Positions 28,740-62,114 of a stretch of DNA of 64,000 bases are shown here, piece by piece. Numbering within the stretch: the first letter of the stretch is position 1; each line of letters opens with the position of its first letter. Source of the stretch: Moniliella sp. 'wahieum' (lineage: Eukaryota; Basidiomycota; Moniliellomycetes; Moniliellales; Moniliellaceae); NCBI GenBank assembly GCA_003971905.1, contig RSEE01000018.1, positions 310,001 through 374,000 of the forward strand, in the 5' to 3' direction. Made by a program: the position numbers and the translations under genes. Below the pieces are notes generated by a model. It worked only from the letters and a program-made list of their open reading frames with translations. It was not told the origin of the DNA and made no database searches.

Positions 28740-29713
28740 AGAGAAACAAGAGGGGCTATGCTGCACCTGGACCACGACCTCACAACCCCCCTGCCCTTCG
28801 CCTTTAATTTAGCAGACTGTCTTCCTCTTCCGCACTTACGACTTGTCTTTTCTTACCGGCCCCCACCTTTGCCGTTGCTCGGACGGGTGGGTGCCTTTGC
28901 TTTTTTCGGCTCCCTTTCTCTCCCCCCGCTTTCTGTCCATCCTTTCCCGACCCGCGGGCCACCTGGTGGAAGGCGCATGCAATGCACGAACCATTGCGGC
29001 AGAGGTTTGATCGTAGACGGCGGGCGGTCTTGAAGCTTGAAGCTAGAAGCTTGAACGTGGAACGTTGAACGCGTCTGCTGTCCTCGTCACGCTGCCCCCA
29101 GACGGGGAAACGGCAGCAGCCGATCTGCCCGACGCCCCACCGCCTTGGGGTTGAAAGTTGCATGTGACCGCCCCAGGAAGCACGGGGCGCGGGGAAGCGA
29201 TCTTCTTCTCACATCGCATTCCGCCGGATGCACGGAGGCACACGCGGCAGGGAGATTCTCGGGGGTTCCTGCCTGGTTCTTTCCCGGCGGCAGCCGCACA
29301 GCGCCCCCCTGCCTGCTGCTGCGGCGGGTGAGCATCCATTTGTCAGCGCCCGCCCGGCGTGCGCGGCAGCCGGCAGCGCGCCTGTGTCGCGCGCGCGCAC
29401 CCCCCACTGCTCCCGTGCGGGCCCGGTGCCTCGGTGCTCTCCGGGCAGCGGGCGGCCGCCTCCGATCGCAGGGGCAGCGCAGCCAGATTCACATCTTCAC
29501 ACCGAAACTTCTTGGGCCGCCGCCGCGCCCGCACGGCGCCAGTCCCCGCGCTCACCCATTAGTAATGCCCCCACCGCGCCAGTGTCGCCCCCATGCGGAT
29601 CCGGCTTGACCCGACCCCTCGCCTGCCCCGGGCCCGGCCGGCAACGGAATAAATAGCGTCGGCGGCTGGCCAGCCCCGTCGTTTCTTCCTCCACCCTCGT
29701 CTCTTTCTTCAAT
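28740..29713. other. intergenic, cytochrome c promoter region
   Basis: No gene is supported. A degenerate tandem of GAAGCTT/GAACGTT units lies at 29031-29070, with HindIII-like AAGCTT cores. Short A/T-rich blocks precede the cytochrome c start. Confidence 0.5.
29648..29655 (+). promoter_or_regulatory. TATA-like element of cytochrome c gene
   Basis: AATAAATA lies 59 bp upstream of the cytochrome c ATG in an otherwise GC-rich stretch, a plausible TATA-like core element. Evidence is position and composition only. Confidence 0.4.
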
Positions 29714-30134
29714 ATGCCTTTTGCTGCTGGTGACGCCAAGAAGGGTGCCGGTCTCTTCAAGACCCGCTGTGCCCAGTGCCACACTGTCGAGGAGAGTGGC
29801 TCCACAAGGTCGGCCCCAACCTCCACGGCCTCTTTGGCCGCCACTCGGGCCAGGCCGAGGGCTACGCCTACACCGAGGCCAACAAGAAGGCCAACGTGCT
29901 CTGGGACGAGAACACCCTCTTCGACTACCTTCTCAACCCAAGAAGTACATTCCCGGCACCAGTATGTCTTTCTTCCTCTCGCCTTGTCTCCTACCCTCCC
30001 CTCCACGCCTCGTTCCCATTCTCACACGTTCTTCCTTGTTTTCTTCTCTTCTTTCTCGCAGAGATGGCCTTGCTGGTCTCAAGAAGGAGAAGGACCGCAG
30101 CGACCTCATCACCTACCTCAAGGAGAGCTGCTAA
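29714..30134 (+). CDS. CYC1: cytochrome c (three homopolymer frameshifts)
   Basis: The ATG at 29714 begins [20 protein letters not shown], followed by the heme-binding CAQCH and TVEE. The next part reads [20 protein letters not shown] and [16 protein letters not shown], then KKYIPGT, and after a 100-nt intron (29962-30061, GTATGT...CTCGCAG) [20 protein letters not shown] and KESC stop at 30132-30134. The axial Met lies in GTKMAFAGLKK. Three single-base corrections are needed: near 29800, CCC at 29937-29939 to CCCC, and TT at 30070-30071 to TTT. Length after repair is about 108-110 residues, normal for fungal cytochrome c. It carries electrons between complexes III and IV in the mitochondrial intermembrane space. 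Confidence 0.96.
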
Positions 30135-31114
30135 GTCTATCCCCGCTTGCCTGGCTCCTGTCGTCATGCCTGTCCCCATTGCCGGGATGTGATCTAGCCC
30201 ACCTGGGCTCCTTCCTCTTGGGCATGCAAAATGCAAAAACACAAAGTATGCGCGAACGTGCTAGTGCTAGTACTCTGTCTATTTTGGTGTGACGGCGAGG
30301 TGTGCGTCGCGACGTCTGTTCCTGTAGACCTCGGGTGCCATGGCAGGTATGCATAGTTCCTATTTGTGGATTCTCTTTAGGCTTTGCTACCTACACGTTG
30401 CCCGCGCTTCGTGACAGGTCGGTGGTACGTGCGATCAAAGTGGTGTTGGTGCCAGCGACAACGATCCACGTTCCCGTCGGAAACGGATCCATTAAAGCCA
30501 AGAATATCAGAGCGGGCATTTTCAACGTGGGAAGCTTTACCGGCGACGAGGGTCAGGACAGAAGGACAGCGTGCAGGAAATATCTACAATGTAATCGGAC
30601 GCGATGGAAGGCTTGGGAATGACGTTCCAGCTTGAGCCGGCGACGGCGAGCGGGGGGGGGGATAGGGGTGGAAGAGCGTGGGGGGAAAGGGGAGAGTTGC
30701 AAACAGCACGCGTCCACGGGCCTAGTGAGCAGGGTGGAAAGCTACAGTGGGCAGTAAGGAGCGTGCGACAGGTAGGTTTAGCACCTATGTGAGCAGGAAA
30801 GCGCGGGGCAAGAGGATGAGAGGGAAAAGGGAAGACGAAAAGTGATGAGCGGCGCGGGAAACGATCACGTTCGATCGACGATCGATGGTGGGATAGGACA
30901 AAAATGCGAGAGGGACAGGGACGAGGATGGGATTCTCCTCCCATGGCGCCCATGAAAGGGGCATGGAACGACGGGGTGGGTAACGACAAGTAGCGAACCT
31001 AGGAACAGCCAGCCCCAATGACGGACAGCCAAAACCAGCAGGACAAAACTAAAACCAACATCGTAGACCCAACAGAGGAGGCGATGGAGAAAACCGAAAC
31101 TCGATGGAAACAGG
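30135..31114. other. intergenic between convergent CYC1 and PBS2
   Basis: No gene is supported in this 980-bp interval. Open frames lack motifs and composition is mixed. It presumably holds both 3' UTRs. I see no tRNA, array or inverted repeat. Confidence 0.5.
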
Positions 31115-32774
31115 TCAAGGCGCAGGTTCCCGCGCGATTGTCGGAGATGCTGCGCCAGAGCTTTGAGCAACTTGCTTGATTTGCAGTGTCTCTTTGATCC
31201 ACGAGGCCATGTCCACATCGTCGTCGCTCTCTGCTCGTGCCCGGTCTTCCAGCAGGAAAGGGTGGTTGAGCAAGTCGGCATACGAAGCACGCTCATTTGG
31301 GTTCTTGGCCAAACACCGCCGGACAAAATCGTTGGCCTGCGCCGAGTAGCCCGGCGGCAACGTCGGCGGGTCCCCCATACGATCGCCTGCAGCTGGGCAA
31401 AGACATCCGAGTAGGTCTCGGGCGGGTAAGGGTACCCTCCCTTGGCAATTTCTACTATGCTCAACCCCAACGACCACACGTCGGCGGCGACGGTATAGGT
31501 GGAAGTGACTTGCTGCGGGTCGATCCGCTCGGGCGCCATGTAGGACTGGAAGCCAATGTTGGTCTTGGCCAAAGATTTTTCCAGTTCGCCCGACACGCCA
31601 AAGTCGCAGAGCTTGACTTGGCCTTGCGTGTTGACCAACACATTCGTCGGTTTCACGTCGCGGTGGTGGATGATGTTGAGGCTATCTTTGAGGAAGCGGA
31701 GACCCGAAACCATCGACCACGCGATCCGCGCCAGCACTGGTTCCGGAACATGGCGGCCCGGTACGCAGAGCTTGTCGAGGCTGCCGGCATCCATGTTCTC
31801 CATGCAATAGTACACGCATCCTTCAACAAAAAACGCCCCGTAAAACTCGACAATCTGCGGCGCCACTGCTCGATGCAAAATGTCAAGCTCCATAATGATC
31901 GCCTTGAGTTTGGGGTCGTCGAGTTCGAGCCGGATCTCCTTCATGGCCATCAGAACCTTGGTTGGTGTGGCGGACTTTGCGCACTGTACCGTAGTTGCCT
32001 CGTCCAAGCTCATTCAACAGCTCAAAGTCCTCCAGCTGGATATGGAAGGTGGTGCCATTGCCAAACTCGACGCCATGGGCATGGAGAATGGCTTGTCGGC
32101 AAACTTGAGGCGACCATCCGTATCGACAATGTTACTGTACTTGTCGAACGCAGTCGACAGCTTCCCGCCTTCGGATGCGGCGGCCAAAGGGCCAGGCGGG
32201 GCCAAGCGCCGCCCGCCGGGTACGGGCGCACCGGACGCTGTGCCGGCCAAGTCGCCCAGACGGAGGGGGGGGCCACGACGTCGGCCGGCCAAGCCACCGC
32301 CGGGAGGCACACGACCGCCCGCGACCGCACCAGGAGCGCCGATCCCACCGACGTGGCAGGGGGCAAGCCGGGGCGGGAGGGGCAGGTCGATCAGAGCGCA
32401 TCTCAGAGCCGCGTGGGTCGTAGGCACCAGACCGCGCGGTGGACAGAGGAGCAGCGCTGCCGGGGGGGGGGCGGAGCGGTGTGGCACCCGGCAGGCCTCC
32501 CAACCGCGGCGCGCCGGGCCGCACCATTCGCGGGCCGTGCGCCGGGCAAGGCACCGGGGAGTGCGCCGCCAAGGCCGGGCAGACTCCTGCCGGGCGCTGC
32601 GCCGGGAGGCGGGCGGATGCCGGCGGCGGCAAAAGGGCGTGTGGAGGGGCCGGAGGCGGAGGGGGCGCTGCGCTTGAGCGGCGGGGGCGGGTGGTGGGGA
32701 GGGGAAGCGGTGCTTGGGGGGCCGAGGGACAGGTCGGCGGCGCTGGCGGCGAGGTCCGCAGACGAGTCGGACAT
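31115..32774 (-). CDS. PBS2: Pbs2/Wis1-type MAP kinase kinase of the HOG stress pathway
   Basis: The ATG at 32772-32774 (MSDSSADLAASAADLSLGPP) opens a Pro/Ala-rich regulatory region. The kinase domain begins LEDFELLNELGRGNYGTV near 32050. It continues with AMKEIRLELDDPKLKAIIME (catalytic Lys), VYYCMENMDAGSLDKL, IIHHRDVKPTNVLVNTQG (catalytic Asp), VKLCDFGVSGELEKSLAKTN and IGFQSYMAPERI. The activation loop keeps the Ser and Thr of SLAKT that are phosphorylated in Pbs2/Wis1. The end, NDFVRRCLAKNPNERASYAD to REPAP, stops at 31115. GVSGxL...SLAKTNIG.QSYMAPERI is typical of Pbs2 rather than Ste7 or Mkk1. A two-base gap after RKVRHT and one correction near 31383 are needed. It should activate a Hog1-type MAPK in osmotic and oxidative stress. 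Confidence 0.9.
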
Positions 32775-41868: not shown

Positions 41869-43356
41869 AGAGAAGCCCCGGCCAAGCCCACCACCTTCTC
41901 CCGCAAGCACGCTCAGCGTTACGACCCCGCCCAGCTGCCCCAGGTACCTATCCCCGACTTTTCCGTCAAGGACCTGCTCACCGCCATCCCACACTGCTAT
42001 GAGCGCAGCGCGCTCCACTCCAGTCTCTATGTGCTGCAAGACATCGTCTTCATGTCGGCCGCCTTCTACGCCGCCACCTACATTGACCCCTTGGTCGCCT
42101 CGCTCGACTTGACCCACTCGCCCATCCCGGCCAGCTGGCTCTCGCCCTCCACCCAAGCACGCCTTCTCACCTGGGCCCTGTTTGGGCTGTACCAAGTGTT
42201 CCAGGGTTTGGTGTTTACCGGGATCTGGGTCAACGCCCACGAATGCGGCCACCAAGCCTTTAGCACTTCCAAAATCAACAACTCGGTCGGCTTTGTCTTG
42301 CACCTTTCCTCCTGGTTCCTTACCATGCCTGGCGCATCTCCCACGCGCGCCACCATGCTGCCACGGGCCACATGACGCGCGACGAGGTCTTTGTCCCTCG
42401 CACGCGCGAACGTCGTGGTTTCCTCCCGCTCCGCCCTGCGTTGCCCGCCGACACGGATGCGAGCGAGGTGGATGAGTTTTTGAAAACGCCTGTCGACAGC
42501 GCGGCCGCGACCGAGGCAGTGGTACCAAACTACCGAGAGCGCGTTGACCTGGGGCCAGTGGATCACGAGACGTTGGAGGATGCGCCGATTTATGCGCTGG
42601 TGATGCTCGTGTTGCAACAACTGTTTGGCTGGCAACTGTACCTGATCAAGAACGCTTCTGGCCAGCTTCACTACCCCAAGGGCACCAACCATTTCAACCC
42701 CAACAGCGTCATCTTTGATGCGCGTCACAAGTGGCAGATCATTGCGTCGGACATCGGGATTGCCGTGATGATTGGTGTGCTGGTCGCAGCTTCGTGGATT
42801 GCGCCCCATGGGTTCTGGGACGTGGCGCGGTACTACTTGATCCCGTATGCGTGGTGCAACCATTGGTTGGTGATGATCACCTACCTCCAGCACACCGACG
42901 CCCAACGCCTCACTACCACGCGGAGGAATGGACGTTCCCGCGGGTGCGCTGTCGACTGTCGACCGCGAGTGGCTCTGGCCCATCGGCCCGCTCTTCTTCC
43001 ACGGCATTGCTGAGACGCATGTTGCGCACCACATCCACTCCAAGATCCCGCACTACCATGCGTGGGAGGCAACGGAGGCACTCAAGCAAAAGCTCGGCCC
43101 CTACTATGTCCACTCGGACCAGAATGTCTTCCGATCTCTCTGGACCAACTACACCAGCTGCCGCTTTGTCGACCTGGCAGACCCCATTGCGTTTTACCGC
43201 AACTCGTGGGGGGTGCCCACGGCGACACCAGTCAAGAGGACCAGCGAGGAGACATCCGACTCGGGTGTTCACCCTGGACTAGACGCGGACGGGACAGACG
43301 GGATGGGAGTGGAGTGGAGCGGATTGGATTGGATTGCACCCAGGAGACATTTGTGA
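41796..43356 (+). CDS. delta-12-type fatty acid desaturase
   Basis: The ATG at 41796 begins MASLHVTAPPSA. After frame repair the protein reads YDPAQLPQVPIPDFSVKDLL, TAIPHCYERSALHSSLYVLQ, a hydrophobic DIVFMSAAFYAATYIDP, then the three histidine boxes: HECGHQAF (42239), HARHHAATGHM (42340) and HVAHHIHSKIPHYHA (43024). Hydrophobic segments around 42180 and 42740-42900 match the two membrane hairpins of ER front-facing desaturases. HECGH as first box is typical of delta-12 (oleate) enzymes. The end is at TGA 43354-43356, about 510 residues. Three C/G runs need one more base (42303, 42901-42903, 42942-42944). It likely makes linoleate from oleate on phospholipids using cytochrome b5. Delta-12 versus delta-15 cannot be decided from sequence alone. 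Confidence 0.9.
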
Positions 43357-55016: not shown

Positions 55017-56938
55017 TTAGGCCGAGTCGGTCGCATAAAGGTTGCCATCCATCTTTTTGTCCTTGTGAAGTTCTGGTGCCTCGCCAACCAATGCGGCTGG
55101 CGTAGCCGACCACTTGCCTTCGTCGGACTTCATGTCGTCCACCGACAACTGGGCCTCGGCCGCGGCCGGTGGCGTCCAATTCACACTCGTCCAAGGCTTG
55201 CAATTCGGGTCGTTGTACATGACCCCAATTTCTTCGAGCGTGAGGCCCTTGGTTTCATACATGTCAAGGCCGTGAACACTGCAGCGAACAAATTCACTCC
55301 TCCGAACACGAATCCGTAACTGAACCCAATCTTGGCAGTGATGGGGTCGTAAAGAAGGCGAGCAAAAAGTTCCAAATCCATTGGTGCAGGACGCCAGAGC
55401 TGCCTGCTTGGCTCGCGTTCGAGTGGCACCCGTCTCACCACAGACAAGCCACACCCCGGGGCCCAGGTCGCTGCGTACCCCAGTAAACCAAAGCAAGCAG
55501 ATACCACCATCAGGGTACCCATTGCCTTGGAAATCTTAGGTCTTCCGACGTGCCCGTATTGCCAACAGTACCCGAATGGCATAGACAAACATCCAGATCG
55601 ACATCCACAGACTTCCGACAATAAGGGCGTCGACGACCAACAAACTCGAGGATGTATAGGCCAGGCAGCTCACAGGCAACACTGACGCCCCAAAGATGAT
55701 TGGGTCACGAGTGAGTCTTGCAGACCAAGGGGCTTCATCACCTGAGCGCCGAAGTAGCTGCGAAGAAATAGTCACAGGGTCAGTTTACCATTTTGTATTT
55801 AGTCGGGGAGTGCCAAGAGAGGGAGTAAATACGAACTAAACTGTTGCAGAAGTGAAGGAAAGCGCAGGCCGAAGGTCAGAAAAGGAACGAAAAGCAGAAA
55901 TTCGCGGAGGAAGCGATGCGTACGATAGTTGGCACCCGTCAGCTGCTGCAGCACTTGGAGCATGCAACAGTAGGGTCCGGTAAAGAACTCGGTTACGAGG
56001 ACGGAAGCAGTCAATCCATCCTGCTTTGTTCGTCCGCTCTTCTGCTTTGAGTAGATCTCCTCAACTTCCACCTCTACCAACATATTGGGTTCATTCGGGT
56101 TGATCCCACGGGTACGAGCAATTGTTTTGCGCACTTCATCCCGACGACCGTGAAGCGCATCAAATCGGGGCGACTCGGGGCAAAACGAGACACCATACAA
56201 AGTGTCAGACCGAAAACAATGCAAGGCACACTGGGATGCGCCACGCTGCGGAACGCTGCGTGGTCCTAGGCGTCCATGGACATTGCGAGCGGCAATGTCA
56301 AGATGTATCCAAGCAAGATGCCCAAGAAGATGAAGAATTGGTACGCGGCCACTCATCCCACGAATGTCTTTGGGAACCAACTCGGCAATGTAGGGAGGCA
56401 CCACCGCCGATAGAGATCCCACGCCCAGACCGGCCACGAGCCGGCCCATGGTGAACTGAACCCATGACCACTCGCTGGTGGCTTGGACGATGATCCCAAC
56501 AAAGAAAAAGACCGTTTCGACTTGAATGGCTTTCCGGCGTCCGATCCAGTCGGCCAAATAGGGAGAAAGTAGGGCTCCAATCAGACACCCAATCGAGAGC
56601 ATTCCCACGAATACACCTTCAATCCATGGCTTCCAAGCCGGCACCCACATCTGACCGCCAGCTCCGTCATTTTGCAATGTGGCATGCTTGTGGTCGGTGG
56701 CAAAGCGCAAAGAGCGTCACTGTCAATCAGAATGCTGGATGAGTAGCCCTGGCAAGTTGGGGTCAGTGAATGTACTCTTTACCAGAAGAAAGGGAACAAG
56801 ACCAGGTTGGCAGGATGGCCAGGAGGGAAGTGAAAAGGATACCATGTCGTATCCGAATAGGGCCCCAGCAATGGTCGACATGCAGACCGTGTAGACGCTG
56901 ATCCACCCGATGGGATGGCCACGCACTTTGAACCCCAT
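55017..56938 (-). CDS. MFS sugar porter (hexose transporter family)
   Basis: The ATG at 56936-56938 begins MGFKVRGHPIGWISVYTVCM, followed by STIAGALFGYDM, typical of the first helix of sugar porters. An intron follows (GTATCC...). Downstream pieces: WIEGVFVGMLSIGCLIGALL, SPYLADWIGRRKAIQVETVF (the GRR loop 2 motif), GRLVAGLGVGSLSAVVPPYI, AELVPKDIRG, PESPRF, VTEFFTGPYCCMLQVLQQLT then GANY. The C-terminal part reads KIGFSYGFVFGGVNLFAAVF and ETKGLTLEEIGVMYNDPNCK, ending at 55017. These are the PROSITE-style sugar transporter signatures of a 12-helix plasma membrane permease of about 520-550 residues. Several one-base corrections and at least two introns are needed. Substrate specificity is not predictable here. 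Confidence 0.87.
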
Positions 56939-57027
56939 GTTGGTTGTATAGCAGTAACAAGTGGGGGTGGGAGGGGGGAGGGTTGCGGACGATGTGGAAG
57001 GGGGGGGCAGAGCACATTTAAACCAAA

Positions 57028-57034
57028 ATATATA
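57028..57034 (-). promoter_or_regulatory. TATA-like element of sugar porter gene
   Basis: TATATAT on the minus strand lies 90-96 bp upstream of the sugar porter ATG at 56938. Confidence 0.5.
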
Positions 57035-58210
57035 GCGCTGCCGAAACGAGATCGATAGCAGCAAAGGCTGAATGGAATCGGTCAACGCCGCGGTCAGCTG
57101 AGGGGGGCATTGCTGTGTGGTAACTAAACGCTTTGGAAGCTGACGCTGGCCCCTCTGCTGCGCGATGCATTGCGTCGAGACAAAGGACCGTCGGTATTAG
57201 GCCTACGTCCCAATCTCCCTGCCCTACCACAGCGCTACTGGGCTCCATACTCATCGACGATCCCACGAAGGGCCCATTTGGCCCCTGGCAATCACCAAAA
57301 ACGCCACGCGTGTGGTGGCCTGTGCAGTGGATACCATGTACGCATGTACAACAGGCACAATGATGACGCGATGTCGCCTGCCGCTCCCCAAGACGGCGCT
57401 CTTCCAAGTGGATCGATTGAGGCAGGGCATATGCAAGCGTACACTTGCCGCCTAGCGGGCGGCTCCGCGGCCGGTGGGGGTGATGAGGCTGGTGACGGCG
57501 GTGACGCGCGTGACGGCTGATCGTTGATGGGCAATGGGGAGTAGCATAGTGTCGAACGCGATGGGGCCCCACACGCCAGCGCGGCCAGCACGGGGGCAGT
57601 GAGAATGCCGTTGGCCTGCCCCGCATCGCCCAAAGCTATTACAATGTTAACACAGCCGCCCATCAGGAACACAGCAACAACGCCCTTCGCTGTGGCGGGC
57701 GCATCCTAGGCTGAGGTTGTTGCCGCACCGAACCGAGCGGCTGAGTGCTGGCCCCCTTTGAAGAGCGTGAAGCTTCCACGTTATCGACAGAGAACCCATC
57801 TCGATCATCGAGACCATCACTGGCTGCACCAGGCTGCACCCCCCCATCCCCGGGTCACCACCGACTGCTTTGCTGTGGACAAAAACGGTTCTCAGTTCAG
57901 CTAGCTTTCCATCCAGTGCACAGCGCTGTGTCAGCTCGCCAGTGTGCCTCAGCCTATGTACTGGCGCTTCTTTGCACCGTGCGTCCTCTCTCTCCTCTGC
58001 GCTCCTCGCTCCTCGACCCGCCCCCATCGACCCCAAATCTACGCTCTCCTTGGAGGTGCAGCCCCATCGCGTCATCAGATCCCCATCGCGTCCTGCGCCA
58101 CAGGTTGATACCACGTGGAGATTAAAGATTCCCCGATGGACCCTTTTATCGATGATCGATCAAGAGACGACCATCGTCCACCGCGACGCCATTGCAGCGG
58201 TTCTACCATC

Positions 58211-58241
58211 GCATGTCACACGCCACATGCCACATGCCACA
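58211..58241. repeat. CACATGC tandem repeat
   Basis: GCATGTCACACGCCACATGCCACATGCC-type units, related to the ACATGTG arrays elsewhere in the window, occur in intergenic DNA. Confidence 0.75.
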
Positions 58242-59510
58242 CCGCGACGATGATAGTAATCTACTTGTCCCACAGCAAGTGCCTTACCCTTTTCCCGCCC
58301 ACCCAGGATGACGAGCCGGCATTTTTGAGCTTGGTCTGATATACGAGGCAAGGCACATGCTGGATGCCCAACCGGGGTTAAACGTTTTCCTGTACACGTG
58401 CATTGGTAGAGAGTATACCCAAGGATGGGGGGGACGAGCTGGGATGCAAACGAATAGCCTGCCCCTGCTCCCGGGGCCCCGGCCATTTCGCCCCAACTGA
58501 TGTCACCGGAGTGGCGGAGGTGCCCGTTTTTCCACAGTTCATCGAATGGAAAGAGGGCAAGCACAGTAGGGGCACGAGAACGCCACCGCTGTGGCGATGC
58601 GAACAGCAGTTTTTAGATGGGCCAGACGGACTGAGGCGCCTTGCTCTCCTTCCCTCGGGCTGCGTCTCCGTCAGAACAGAGGATTTGCTCTGACAGCGGA
58701 GCGCATGATGAGACCTGGAGTCCTGATGGTCCTCGAGGGTGATGCAATCGCACTGGTGGTGGTGTGGCAACCAGCAATGCCTACAGAGGAACATCAAACA
58801 GCGAGTCGCCATCAGGGGCTAAGCTCGGGCAAGGAGGGAAACAGGAGAGGGGAACAGCAGAACTCCTAGGCCTGAGGAGGAGCTGAAGCGACATTGGCCA
58901 AATCACGAGCCACTTAGCTCAACAGCGCACACGCGTCTCTCCATGTGCCCCGTGGATCATGATCCTTAGCTTCTTGGTGCGACCCACTCGACGGGGAGAA
59001 AAAGGTGTCGAACCACATCATCCTAAGTAGTGTAGAGTACTGGCACGTAGTTGCGGTCCCTCCCCATCAGAATGCAAGAGGAGCTGCCACAGTGACATGT
59101 CCCCATGGCGTGGGCGGAGATACGTCTATCCACGCTACATTCTACTCACGCTGGTCATATACCTCTCTCCTCTCCGTCTCTCTTCTCTCTTCTCTCCTTC
59201 CGTCAGTCCAGCAACGACTTGGACCCTGGAATGCCACTAGTGTCTGCTCGCCCCCTTGGTTCATAGAGGCGCCAAGGGACCGTCCCAGCCCTACGAAGCC
59301 CACCCGCGCACGAACACGAACCAAACCAACAAGCATTACAACACGGCATACTGGTGAGCGTCCCTTTTCTCCCAGCAGGGACGAAAAAAAAACAAAAAAG
59401 ATCAGGCAGCAAAGCAGGCGCAAGCAAGTAGTCCCCCCCCCCTAGCGCCCCAGCCGCCGCCACCGCGAGCAGCCACGCGACCAGGTAGGCCTTAGGATGG
59501 TCCTGCCCCG

Positions 59511-62114
59511 CTACCAGTCGCCAACGAATTGTCCCTGGGGAGGGGCGAGCGCGGGGAGGGCGGGAGGAAGGGGCGGGGCGAGGCGGTGGGAGCGAAGCGC
59601 GAGCCAATCAAACTCGGGTCCGGGCGCGGCGTGCGCCGACGGTGGAGGCGGGTGCAACGTGGCGGGCGAGCTGGCGGACCAAATCGGTTGTTCCGAAGGC
59701 TCGATGGGCGAGGCGGTGGCGCGCAAGCCAAACCAAGGGTGCCGCTCAATGTCCTTCCTCCCGCCACCAGTGGCCAAGCGGAAGGAGAAGGAGGGATTGA
59801 GCAAGCCAAAGAGGAGGTGCGTGACGTGCTGCAGTTCCGCCCCGGGCGCAGCGGCAAACGCTGGCGCCAACGCGTCTGCCACAGGTACCGACGTGATGCC
59901 CTTGAGAATCAGCTGGGACAGGCGGTCGTTGCGTGTAGGACGCACGTGGGCTGAGGGGCGACGTGCGTGTGGAGCTGGCCGGGTTCGCTTGTGTCGAGTC
60001 GGACCAAGGACTGGTAATGAGTGGAACCTGCGCCTTTCGTCGTGGCCATCGGGAGCAAACGGGGTGTGACCGGCGAGCAACTCAAAGAGCAAGATGCCCG
60101 TGCCCAAAAACGACCGCGGCTGTGTAGCTCGTTTTCTGGATCACCTCGGGGCAGTGAACTCGTCCAGATCGACCAACGGCAATGGAGGCAGCGTAGACGG
60201 TCGGCGTTCCGACAAGGCGCCTGGGTCGCCCTCATAGGGTATGGGTGCCGGGGGTACCGGAAGCAAAACTGGGCCTGGCCAAACCCAGCAAGCTTGATAT
60301 ACCCATCCGAACCAAGCAGCACGTTTTCGGGCTTGAGGCCGCCATGGACAATGTGGCGCGAATGGACAAAGTCCAAGGCGTCCAGAAGGCTAGCAAGGTA
60401 AAAGCGGGCCATCGAGGGAGCCATGCGGTGGTCCGTGCAGTGATCCAACAGTTGGAACAGATTGCCCCCGGCACATACTCGAGCATGACAAAATCGCGCG
60501 ATTCGTGCCGGAGCGAAGTGTAAAATTCGACAATCAAGTCGTGCTTCAACTGGAGAGCAGTCGGGATCCGTTGTCCCCTTGTTTTTCGCGTTACCTTGAC
60601 GACAGCCAGCTCGCCCAATCGAGCGGGCGAGCGAGTTTGTTCCTCGGGTGGACGAGGATCGACAGGAGCACACGACTGCGCCGCCCGCATCCAGGGATTG
60701 ACGAACACGGATCGTGTCCAAGCGAAACTCGGGAGGCGACGCTCGCCCGATCAAGTTGGAAAAGGGGGCGCGGACGAGGCGTGCTGCGGCGAAGTGGAAA
60801 CGATGCGGGGCGGGGACGAGGCGCATGCGAGGGGTGAATCAGCCCGGGCAAGACAGGAAGGGCCTCCGCTCGTCTGAGACGCATGAGGGGAGTAGTGAGC
60901 AGGATAGGCCGGTGTACCGCTGTCCCATGGATGCGTTCGTGCCACGCGAGAGGCGGGTCGCGGGTCGCGCGACGACAGGTCCCAGGGACGCTGCGGTGGC
61001 GGGTAGGACGGATGGGCGGAGCGGGGGGCATGATGCGGGCCAAGCGCGCGAGTCCAATCTTGCGGCAAGCGTCCTGGTGACAGGGGACCAGCAGAGTGTG
61101 ATGCACGCGGCGAAGTCCGCGGCGGGTTCACGAGCGAGTAGGAACCTGTCCGCCGATGCAACGACGAAGCGTAGGGCGCGGGTAAGGGCGGACACCTAAC
61201 GACCGCAGCGAAGGCAGTGGACTCGCCCTTGGTCGTGTTCGTCCTTCCTGCGGCAGGACCCAACAGAGGTCCCGTCGACGATCCTGTGGACTTGCGAGCG
61301 GCTGGGGCGGCGGTCGGGTGGGGTAGGAGGGAAGATGTAGGTCTGGCTCCAGGAGACGGGTGTGTAGTGGGCCATACAGGGGGACGGGCAGCGTTTCGTT
61401 GGAGCCCCACGGCGGGTTAGCAGCGGGTGCTGAGGCAGGCGGGCGGTCGCGGTGGGAGGCAGTGTGGCTGGCCCTGCGCTCAAGAACGGCTGGGTCGGTT
61501 TGGACGGAAAGCTGCATGGCTGGAACCTTGCGCCGCTTGGCAGGAGGAGGGTGGATGAGCGAGGGAGAGGTGGTGGTGGATGAGGCGGGCGAGAGATGAT
61601 GGCGGCGGTAGGCGTAATGGTAACTCCGTGCTCGCGGGCCCATAAAAGGGCGGTGCGGGAGAGCTGGTGTTCGGCGAGCTCGAGGCCGAGGTGTTCGCGG
61701 AGGGACTCGCGGACGAGGGAGGGACGTTATTGGGAGGCAGAGATGCTAGGGGAGTGTACGGTGGCACGCCCGCCTTGGGAGAGTCGGAAGACGCGGCGCT
61801 GGGCTGGGCGGTGGCCCAGGTACGCAACAAGGTCTGGTCTGCCGTATCGCGCACCGTTCGAGGCGGGAGCGGAGGGAGGCAGGCAGACGGGCGGGGCCTG
61901 TGCGCCGCAGAGTGCCGGGCGGGGACATGCCAGTGCTGGGGGAAGGGGAGGGCGAGAGGGGGAGGGGGAGGTGGGCAGGGAGAGTGCCTCGGCGAGGGAA
62001 AGGCCGGCCCAGGTTACGATGGGGTCCGGGCGGTGTGGTGGTGGACGAGGAGGTGGCGCTGGGCGAGCGCGCGATCGGGGTCGGAGGTGCCGCCGCAAGA
62101 GCGGCAAGCGCCAT
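59511..62114 (-). CDS. AGC/PKA-like pseudokinase
   Basis: The likely ATG (62112-62114, MALAALAAAPPTPIARSPS) opens a long Pro/Ser/Ala-rich region. The kinase-like domain spans about 59700-60620: ELAVVKV (Lys kept), HDLIVEFYTSLRHESRDFVM, LEYVPGGNLFQLLDHCTDHR, MAPSMARFYLASLLDALDFV then HSRHIVHGGLKPENVLLGSD and GYIKLAGFGQAQ. HRD is HGG and DFG is GFG, so both catalytic aspartates are glycine. The activation segment keeps SGTPG and APEVIQKTSYTAA but with about 30 extra residues between them. ILLFELLAGHTPFAPDG and DIERHPWFGL follow as in PKA, then PEFDWLAL and a tail ending at 59511. A possible 49-nt intron (GTAACG...CTCCAG) follows the lysine; the alpha-C region is short or missing. Function is unknown; N-terminal frames are poorly resolved. 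Confidence 0.65.

Follow-up and report, generated by a model that had tools for sequence, protein, structure and literature searches.

We put at roughly 0.8 the probability that this fungus carries a functional, selectively maintained and probably catalytically dead AGC pseudokinase, a reading that rests on comparison of sequences. The gene lies on contig C18 (positions 310001-374000) of an assembly of 69.5 Mb in 223 contigs; "the window" means that whole stretch of 64,000 nucleotides. The assembly has 21 matches to the chitin synthase N-domain, which mark it as fungal. The gene, its kinase-like domain and the positions that bear on catalysis are as follows.

59511..62114, minus strand: pseudokinase gene, from the ATG at 62114-62112 to the TAG at 59513-59511, with a frame interrupted by many one-base gaps.
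59730..60733, minus strand: kinase-like domain, from PEFRLDT to HPWF, recognized by PF00069 matches and by its best phmmer match in the PDB.
60595..60597, minus strand: codon for the beta3 lysine, which is retained (VVK), read from the sequence.
60338..60346, minus strand: HGG replacing HRD (CAT GGC GGC), the same in the copy on contig C9.
60278..60286, minus strand: GFG replacing DFG (GGG TTT GGC), the same in the copy on C9.

The PF00069 profile matched both copies of the domain above its cut-off of 31.7 bits, with 48.5 bits for the window piece (E = 1e-12) and 111.7 bits for the C9 copy (E = 5.1e-32). The top phmmer match of the domain in the PDB was the yeast cAMP-dependent kinase 1fot (E = 2.8e-26). 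An uninterrupted minus-strand frame of the window, MARFYLASLLDALDFVHSRHIVHGGLKPENVLLGSDGYIKLAGFGQAQF, contains both HGG and GFG, and a single minus-strand frame gives VHSRHIVHGGLKPENVLLGSDGYIKLAGFGQAQF. A pseudokinase is expected to have lost at least one canonical catalytic motif within a conserved kinase domain. Here HRD has become HGG, DFG has become GFG, and the glycine-rich loop is degraded. The sequence-only reading of this gene had described a kinase domain in which catalytic residues have been lost and a continuous frame over the HGG piece and IKLAGFGQAQ; the profile matches, the replaced motifs in both copies and the minus-strand frame within 59511..62114 bear this out. Outside the piece from HGG to GFG the frame is broken: relative to C9, the window lacks single bases at 12 positions within 954 bp of kinase sequence, and C9 lacks 2 relative to the window.

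Searching the kinase-region DNA against its own genome returned three matches: the region itself, C9:671727-672957 at 94% identity, and a 57-base piece on C46. Probes at C18:340800, C18:352000 and C18:369500 found C9:643461, C9:654642 and C9:671727, a collinear arrangement of the two contigs across the stretch that was probed, and most of the window from 27.4 to 63.5 kb is covered by C9 in a pairwise alignment at 91-95% identity. By these comparisons the two contigs resemble haplotypes or subgenomes that have diverged. On C9 the gene has a stop-free frame of 715 residues that includes HGGVKPENVLL and LAGFGQAQ. The HGG and GFG codons there are identical to those of the window, although synonymous divergence between the copies is about 7%. 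Because the codons recur in the stop-free frame of a collinear copy (94% DNA identity), HGG and GFG are not local errors, and the earlier claim that they are substitutions stands. We considered A-to-G hypermutation and substitution error in the assembly as sources of these codons. Both were ruled out, since GGG requires two changes from GAC or GAT and the codons are common to both copies.

Other genes of the window also have relatives in the assembly. A MAP kinase kinase-like gene, named by eye, at 30865-32013 on the minus strand (PF00069, 138.8 bits) has copies on C9 (97%) and on C72 and C123 (both 76%); thus the genome has both close pairs and older duplicates. A fatty acid desaturase gene (PF00487), in a plus-strand frame at 42000-43100, has a 96% copy on C9 and copies at 74-76% on C47, C10 and C32. 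Contigs C10 and C47 are also home to the sister kinase described below, which may point to an ancient duplication of a block or of the genome. The window further contains, at 499-1590 on the minus strand, a protein with an FHA domain and a RING-type zinc finger, and, at 29657-30292 on the plus strand, a piece of a cytochrome c gene whose likeness to cytochrome c ends after the heme motif. By eye, that end is a frame break or an intron. Elsewhere in the genome, eight matches to the bacteriorhodopsin family (PF01036) lie on C8, C39, C15, C43 and C23; C39 and C23 each carry two of them less than 6 kb apart in opposite orientation. These matches did not narrow down the affiliation of the fungus, and the radial spoke family gave no match in a search that had no positive control.

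For the anatomy of the pseudokinase we relied chiefly on C9, comparing it with the fungus's PKA-type genes (on C20 and C6) and with an apparently active paralogue on C10 and C47. The glycine-rich loop GxGxxG reads DAGRRS, with two of the three glycines lost. The beta3 lysine and the conserved helix C LL are separated by 11 residues, compared with 20 in the paralogue and in PKA, so that nine residues are gone before or within helix C. This stretch was read by eye because MAFFT placed it slightly off; again by eye, Asp occupies the position of the helix C Glu. The Lys and Asn of KPEN are retained after HGG, and the C9 copy still has APE, as well as the helix F Asp (AVDFWALG). The window reads APR in place of APE because of a one-base gap. 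With the beta3 Lys, KPEN, APE and helix F Asp in place (as read on C9), the protein would be expected to fold like a kinase. It would probably be unable to bind Mg-ATP productively or to transfer phosphate, because it has lost the glycine-rich loop, part of the helix C region and the two Asp residues that serve catalysis and metal binding.

A kinase of this kind could in principle be cryptically active, working without Mg2+ as CASK does. CASK is active and has the same GFG, according to PMC4042850 and PMC2639636, and the beta3 Lys is retained here. However, Table 1 of PMC2639636 shows that CASK keeps HRD and an intact glycine-rich loop, whereas our gene has lost the catalytic Asp, two of three loop glycines and nine residues between beta3 and helix C. 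We regard cryptic activity as extremely unlikely.

Among the proteins compared from the literature, human VRK3 is the nearest analogue. According to PMC2639636, VRK3 has a degraded glycine-rich loop (TRDNQG), a retained beta3 Lys, HGN and GFG, has the active paralogues VRK1 and VRK2, and acts as a binding protein; the degraded loop, beta3 Lys, GFG and active paralogy are features of our gene too. VRK3 belongs to the VRK family, not to the AGC group, and the pseudokinase described here differs in its HGG, its shortened helix C region and its long inserts. EphA10, as tabulated in PMC7586955 (Table 1), reads HRG and GFG, with Gly replacing both the catalytic and the metal-binding Asp as in our gene. 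It differs in being an Eph receptor with an intact glycine-rich loop (GGGRFG) and a His in place of the beta3 Lys that the pseudokinase keeps. Another comparison is Fam20A, which, according to PMC5413348, allosterically activates its active relative Fam20C, an effect for which residues of its dimer interface matter. VRK3, EphA10, CASK and Fam20A are analogies of mechanism, not of membership.

The activation segment and the regions that follow it were located as follows.

60144..60286, ends approximate, minus strand: activation segment with a 23-residue insertion; the activation-loop Thr and the P+1 Thr are absent (read on C9).
59931..60044, minus strand: C-lobe insertion between GHTPFAPDG and NDRLSQ, at a position similar to that of an insertion in the active paralogue.
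59511..59612, minus strand: putative AGC-type C-terminal tail (FDWLALRSHRLAPPLPP...GDW and stop), within the ORF 59511-60140.

From xFG to APE, the pseudokinase has 42 residues, the PKA-type gene on C20 has 19, and the C10/C47 paralogue has 51. An insertion of roughly 30 residues in the activation segment had been reported from the sequence. It is present, but it amounts to 23 residues relative to C20. It had also been counted toward the divergence of the pseudokinase. The insertion is no part of the loss of activity, because the segment of the active paralogue is longer still. The window copy is in frame from RKDIERHPWF through FDWLALRSHRLAPPLPP to the stop. The likeness of this tail to that of PKA was judged by eye and on the window copy, C9 being out of frame there.

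Neither copy offers a single unbroken gene: late in its kinase domain, C9 leaves frame after LLNPS (LLNPSSLFLLAW...), at a place where the window continues to HPWF. In the window copy, gaps continue along the remainder of the gene. This raises the alternative that the gene is a decaying pseudogene, with HGG, GFG and the frame breaks all products of neutral decay. In its favor, the 12 one-base gaps of the window kinase region relative to C9 are clearly denser than the 3 gaps found in C10 across 879 columns of the paralogue C-lobe, and there are the further gaps beyond the domain. Their density is, however, similar to that of the paralogue N-lobe (3 gap events in C10 across 207 columns) and not far from that of the C6 PKA-type gene. 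An alignment of 546 columns between the PKA-type genes on C20 and C6 contains 6 gap events, of which 5 are bases missing in C6, a gene that loses frame in its activation loop; the C20 gene has 2 one-base gaps in 226 N-lobe columns. Between 27.4 and 63.5 kb, where C9 and the window were aligned, one-base gaps also affect each of the two sequences, and the C9 copy is stop-free over its 715 residues. Since this assembly also breaks the frames of a PKA-type gene and of the active paralogue, the frame breaks of the window are most likely errors of consensus or assembly, not decay. The window has 35 and 36 one-base gaps in the two 2-kb bins from 56 to 60 kb, compared with 4-29 in the other 17 bins; this excess at 56000-60000 is perhaps a local drop in consensus quality.

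To measure selection, we compared C9 with the window, counting only gap-free codons (304 of 318), and found 15 synonymous and 7 non-synonymous differences (dS 0.067, dN 0.010). The resulting dN/dS of 0.156, which reflects the joint history of both copies and not that of the window copy alone, had a bootstrap 95% interval of 0.05-0.38, with 0 of 2000 replicates at or above 1. The dN/dS check proposed by the sequence-only reading thus gave a value well below 1, far from the value near 1 that marks a pseudogene. Differences fell at codon positions 1, 2 and 3 in the numbers 4, 1 and 17. A second alignment gave dS 0.074 and dN 0.0138 (306 codons, 12 skipped for gaps), and a Fisher test on rounded counts from that alignment gave p = 1.9e-5. 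For the N-terminal tail, dS was 0.0737 and dN 0.0163 (325 codons, 8 skipped). The C10/C47 pair, for comparison, had a dN/dS of 0.099 over 290 codons. Random base errors would push dN/dS up, not down. We conclude that purifying selection acts on the pseudokinase between the two copies, and we consider neutral decay unlikely.

Where the pseudokinase belongs among kinases was addressed by searches and a tree. The 48-residue piece from HGG to GFG matched 117 places in the genome. We read 12 of these; the window and C9 have HGG and GFG, and the other 10 have RD and DFG. After C9, the nearest matches of this piece were C10 and C47 (54%, 5.3e-10), followed by C20 (52%, 7.4e-10), so close behind that the short piece alone is indecisive. 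With the paralogue as query (47 matches in total), C9 was the best match after C10 and C47 themselves (42%, 4.8e-37), and C136 and C119 came next (1.2e-33 and 2.0e-33). In a tree of 21 kinase rows, built on 194 of 265 columns, the pseudokinase grouped with C10 and C47 with support of 95/92, and the PKA-type genes on C20 and C6 formed a separate clade (97/96) that excludes it. Eight rows, the pseudokinase included, read as AGC kinases with moderate support (80/90), and this fork was drawn open. The pseudokinase branch has a length of 1.1, and its two PKA rows have a mere 114 and 103 residues. Three further matches of the paralogue query were added to the sampling and L019 was left out; the window copy was omitted because its frame is broken.

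The paralogue frames show canonical motifs, with GVGTFG, AVK and RERNLL on C47 and FRDLKPEN, DFG and CGTEEYLAPE on C10. The pseudokinase and the C10/C47 paralogue have in common an N-terminal motif, LLVDP, and insertions between beta2 and beta3, in the activation segment and in the C-lobe after GHTPF. They differ in that the paralogue has GxGxxG, AVK, RD, DFG and the Thr of the P+1 loop, none of which the pseudokinase has in canonical form, although it retains the beta3 Lys. On this evidence, the pseudokinase is placed as the sister of a separate AGC kinase on C10/C47, not of the PKA-type genes.

The gene had been called PKA-like from the sequence, and it had been suggested that it could act as a scaffold or as a decoy, a catalytic-like protein titrating the regulatory subunits of cAMP signaling. 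Some observations point that way. By phmmer, catalytic subunits of PKA such as 1fot and 1atp make up most of the best PDB sequence matches of the pseudokinase, as they do for the active paralogue, and the short-piece score of C20 almost equals that of C10/C47. The best 60 PDB matches comprised PKA, one rac-type kinase and RSK. For the C20 piece, in comparison, the best match was 1fot at 301 bits, and every one of the 57 PDB sequences that it matched with E no higher than 1e-60 was PKA or a PKA fusion. The pseudokinase itself differs from PKA in lacking the catalytic residues, in carrying large inserts and in grouping with another AGC kinase in the tree, apart from the PKA-type genes of its own genome. 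Moreover, PLPLVDL aligns with the TWTLCGT segment of PKA, with PLP in place of the activation-loop TWT, and the Trp of TWTLCGT serves the docking of the regulatory subunit. Membership of PKA proper is therefore not upheld, and a role as a decoy in cAMP signaling seems very unlikely. A second, intact PKA gene had been named as something to look for. PKA-type genes with canonical motifs do exist on C20 and C6, but "intact" cannot be claimed for them because both frames are broken in the assembly.

A similarity to the sister kinase was also found outside the kinase domain.

61622..61723, minus strand: N-terminal motif PSxVRESLREHLGLELAEHQLSRTALLWAREHGV, common to the active paralogue.

This is an ungapped match of 34 residues, whose score was reached by 0 of 5000 shuffles for C9 and 1 of 5000 for the window. 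The piece upstream of the motif was not significant on its own (537 of 5000 shuffles). The N-terminal region of the paralogue (L039:3489-4982, minus strand; residues about 60-135 of protein P0003) was searched against the whole genome. Its matches were confined to its own two copies, on C47 and C10, and included neither C9 nor the window; the N-terminal link is consequently supportive but not strong. Outside the kinase domain, the paralogue protein matched no Pfam family at E up to 3.

The history that we favor for this maintained pseudokinase is that an AGC kinase was duplicated, one product becoming the pseudokinase and the other, on C10/C47, keeping the canonical motifs. The gene in the window would then be one of two diverged chromosome copies, its assembled sequence damaged by indel errors. 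Tentatively, the protein may work without catalysis in the pathway to which its sister kinase belongs, as a binding partner or a competitor, using the kinase-fold surface and the N-terminal region that the two proteins share. More speculatively, the two might form a fungal kinase/pseudokinase pair in which the dead product persists as an allosteric subunit of its partner, the two being joined by the shared N-terminal module.

This pseudokinase opens no new class of system. What the genome offers is a pseudokinase together with its canonical sister, each in two diverged copies, and constraint is therefore directly measurable. A gene under constraint can lie concealed in a poorly assembled copy, and a dN/dS based on substitutions, with a second copy at hand, helps to separate assembly error from decay.
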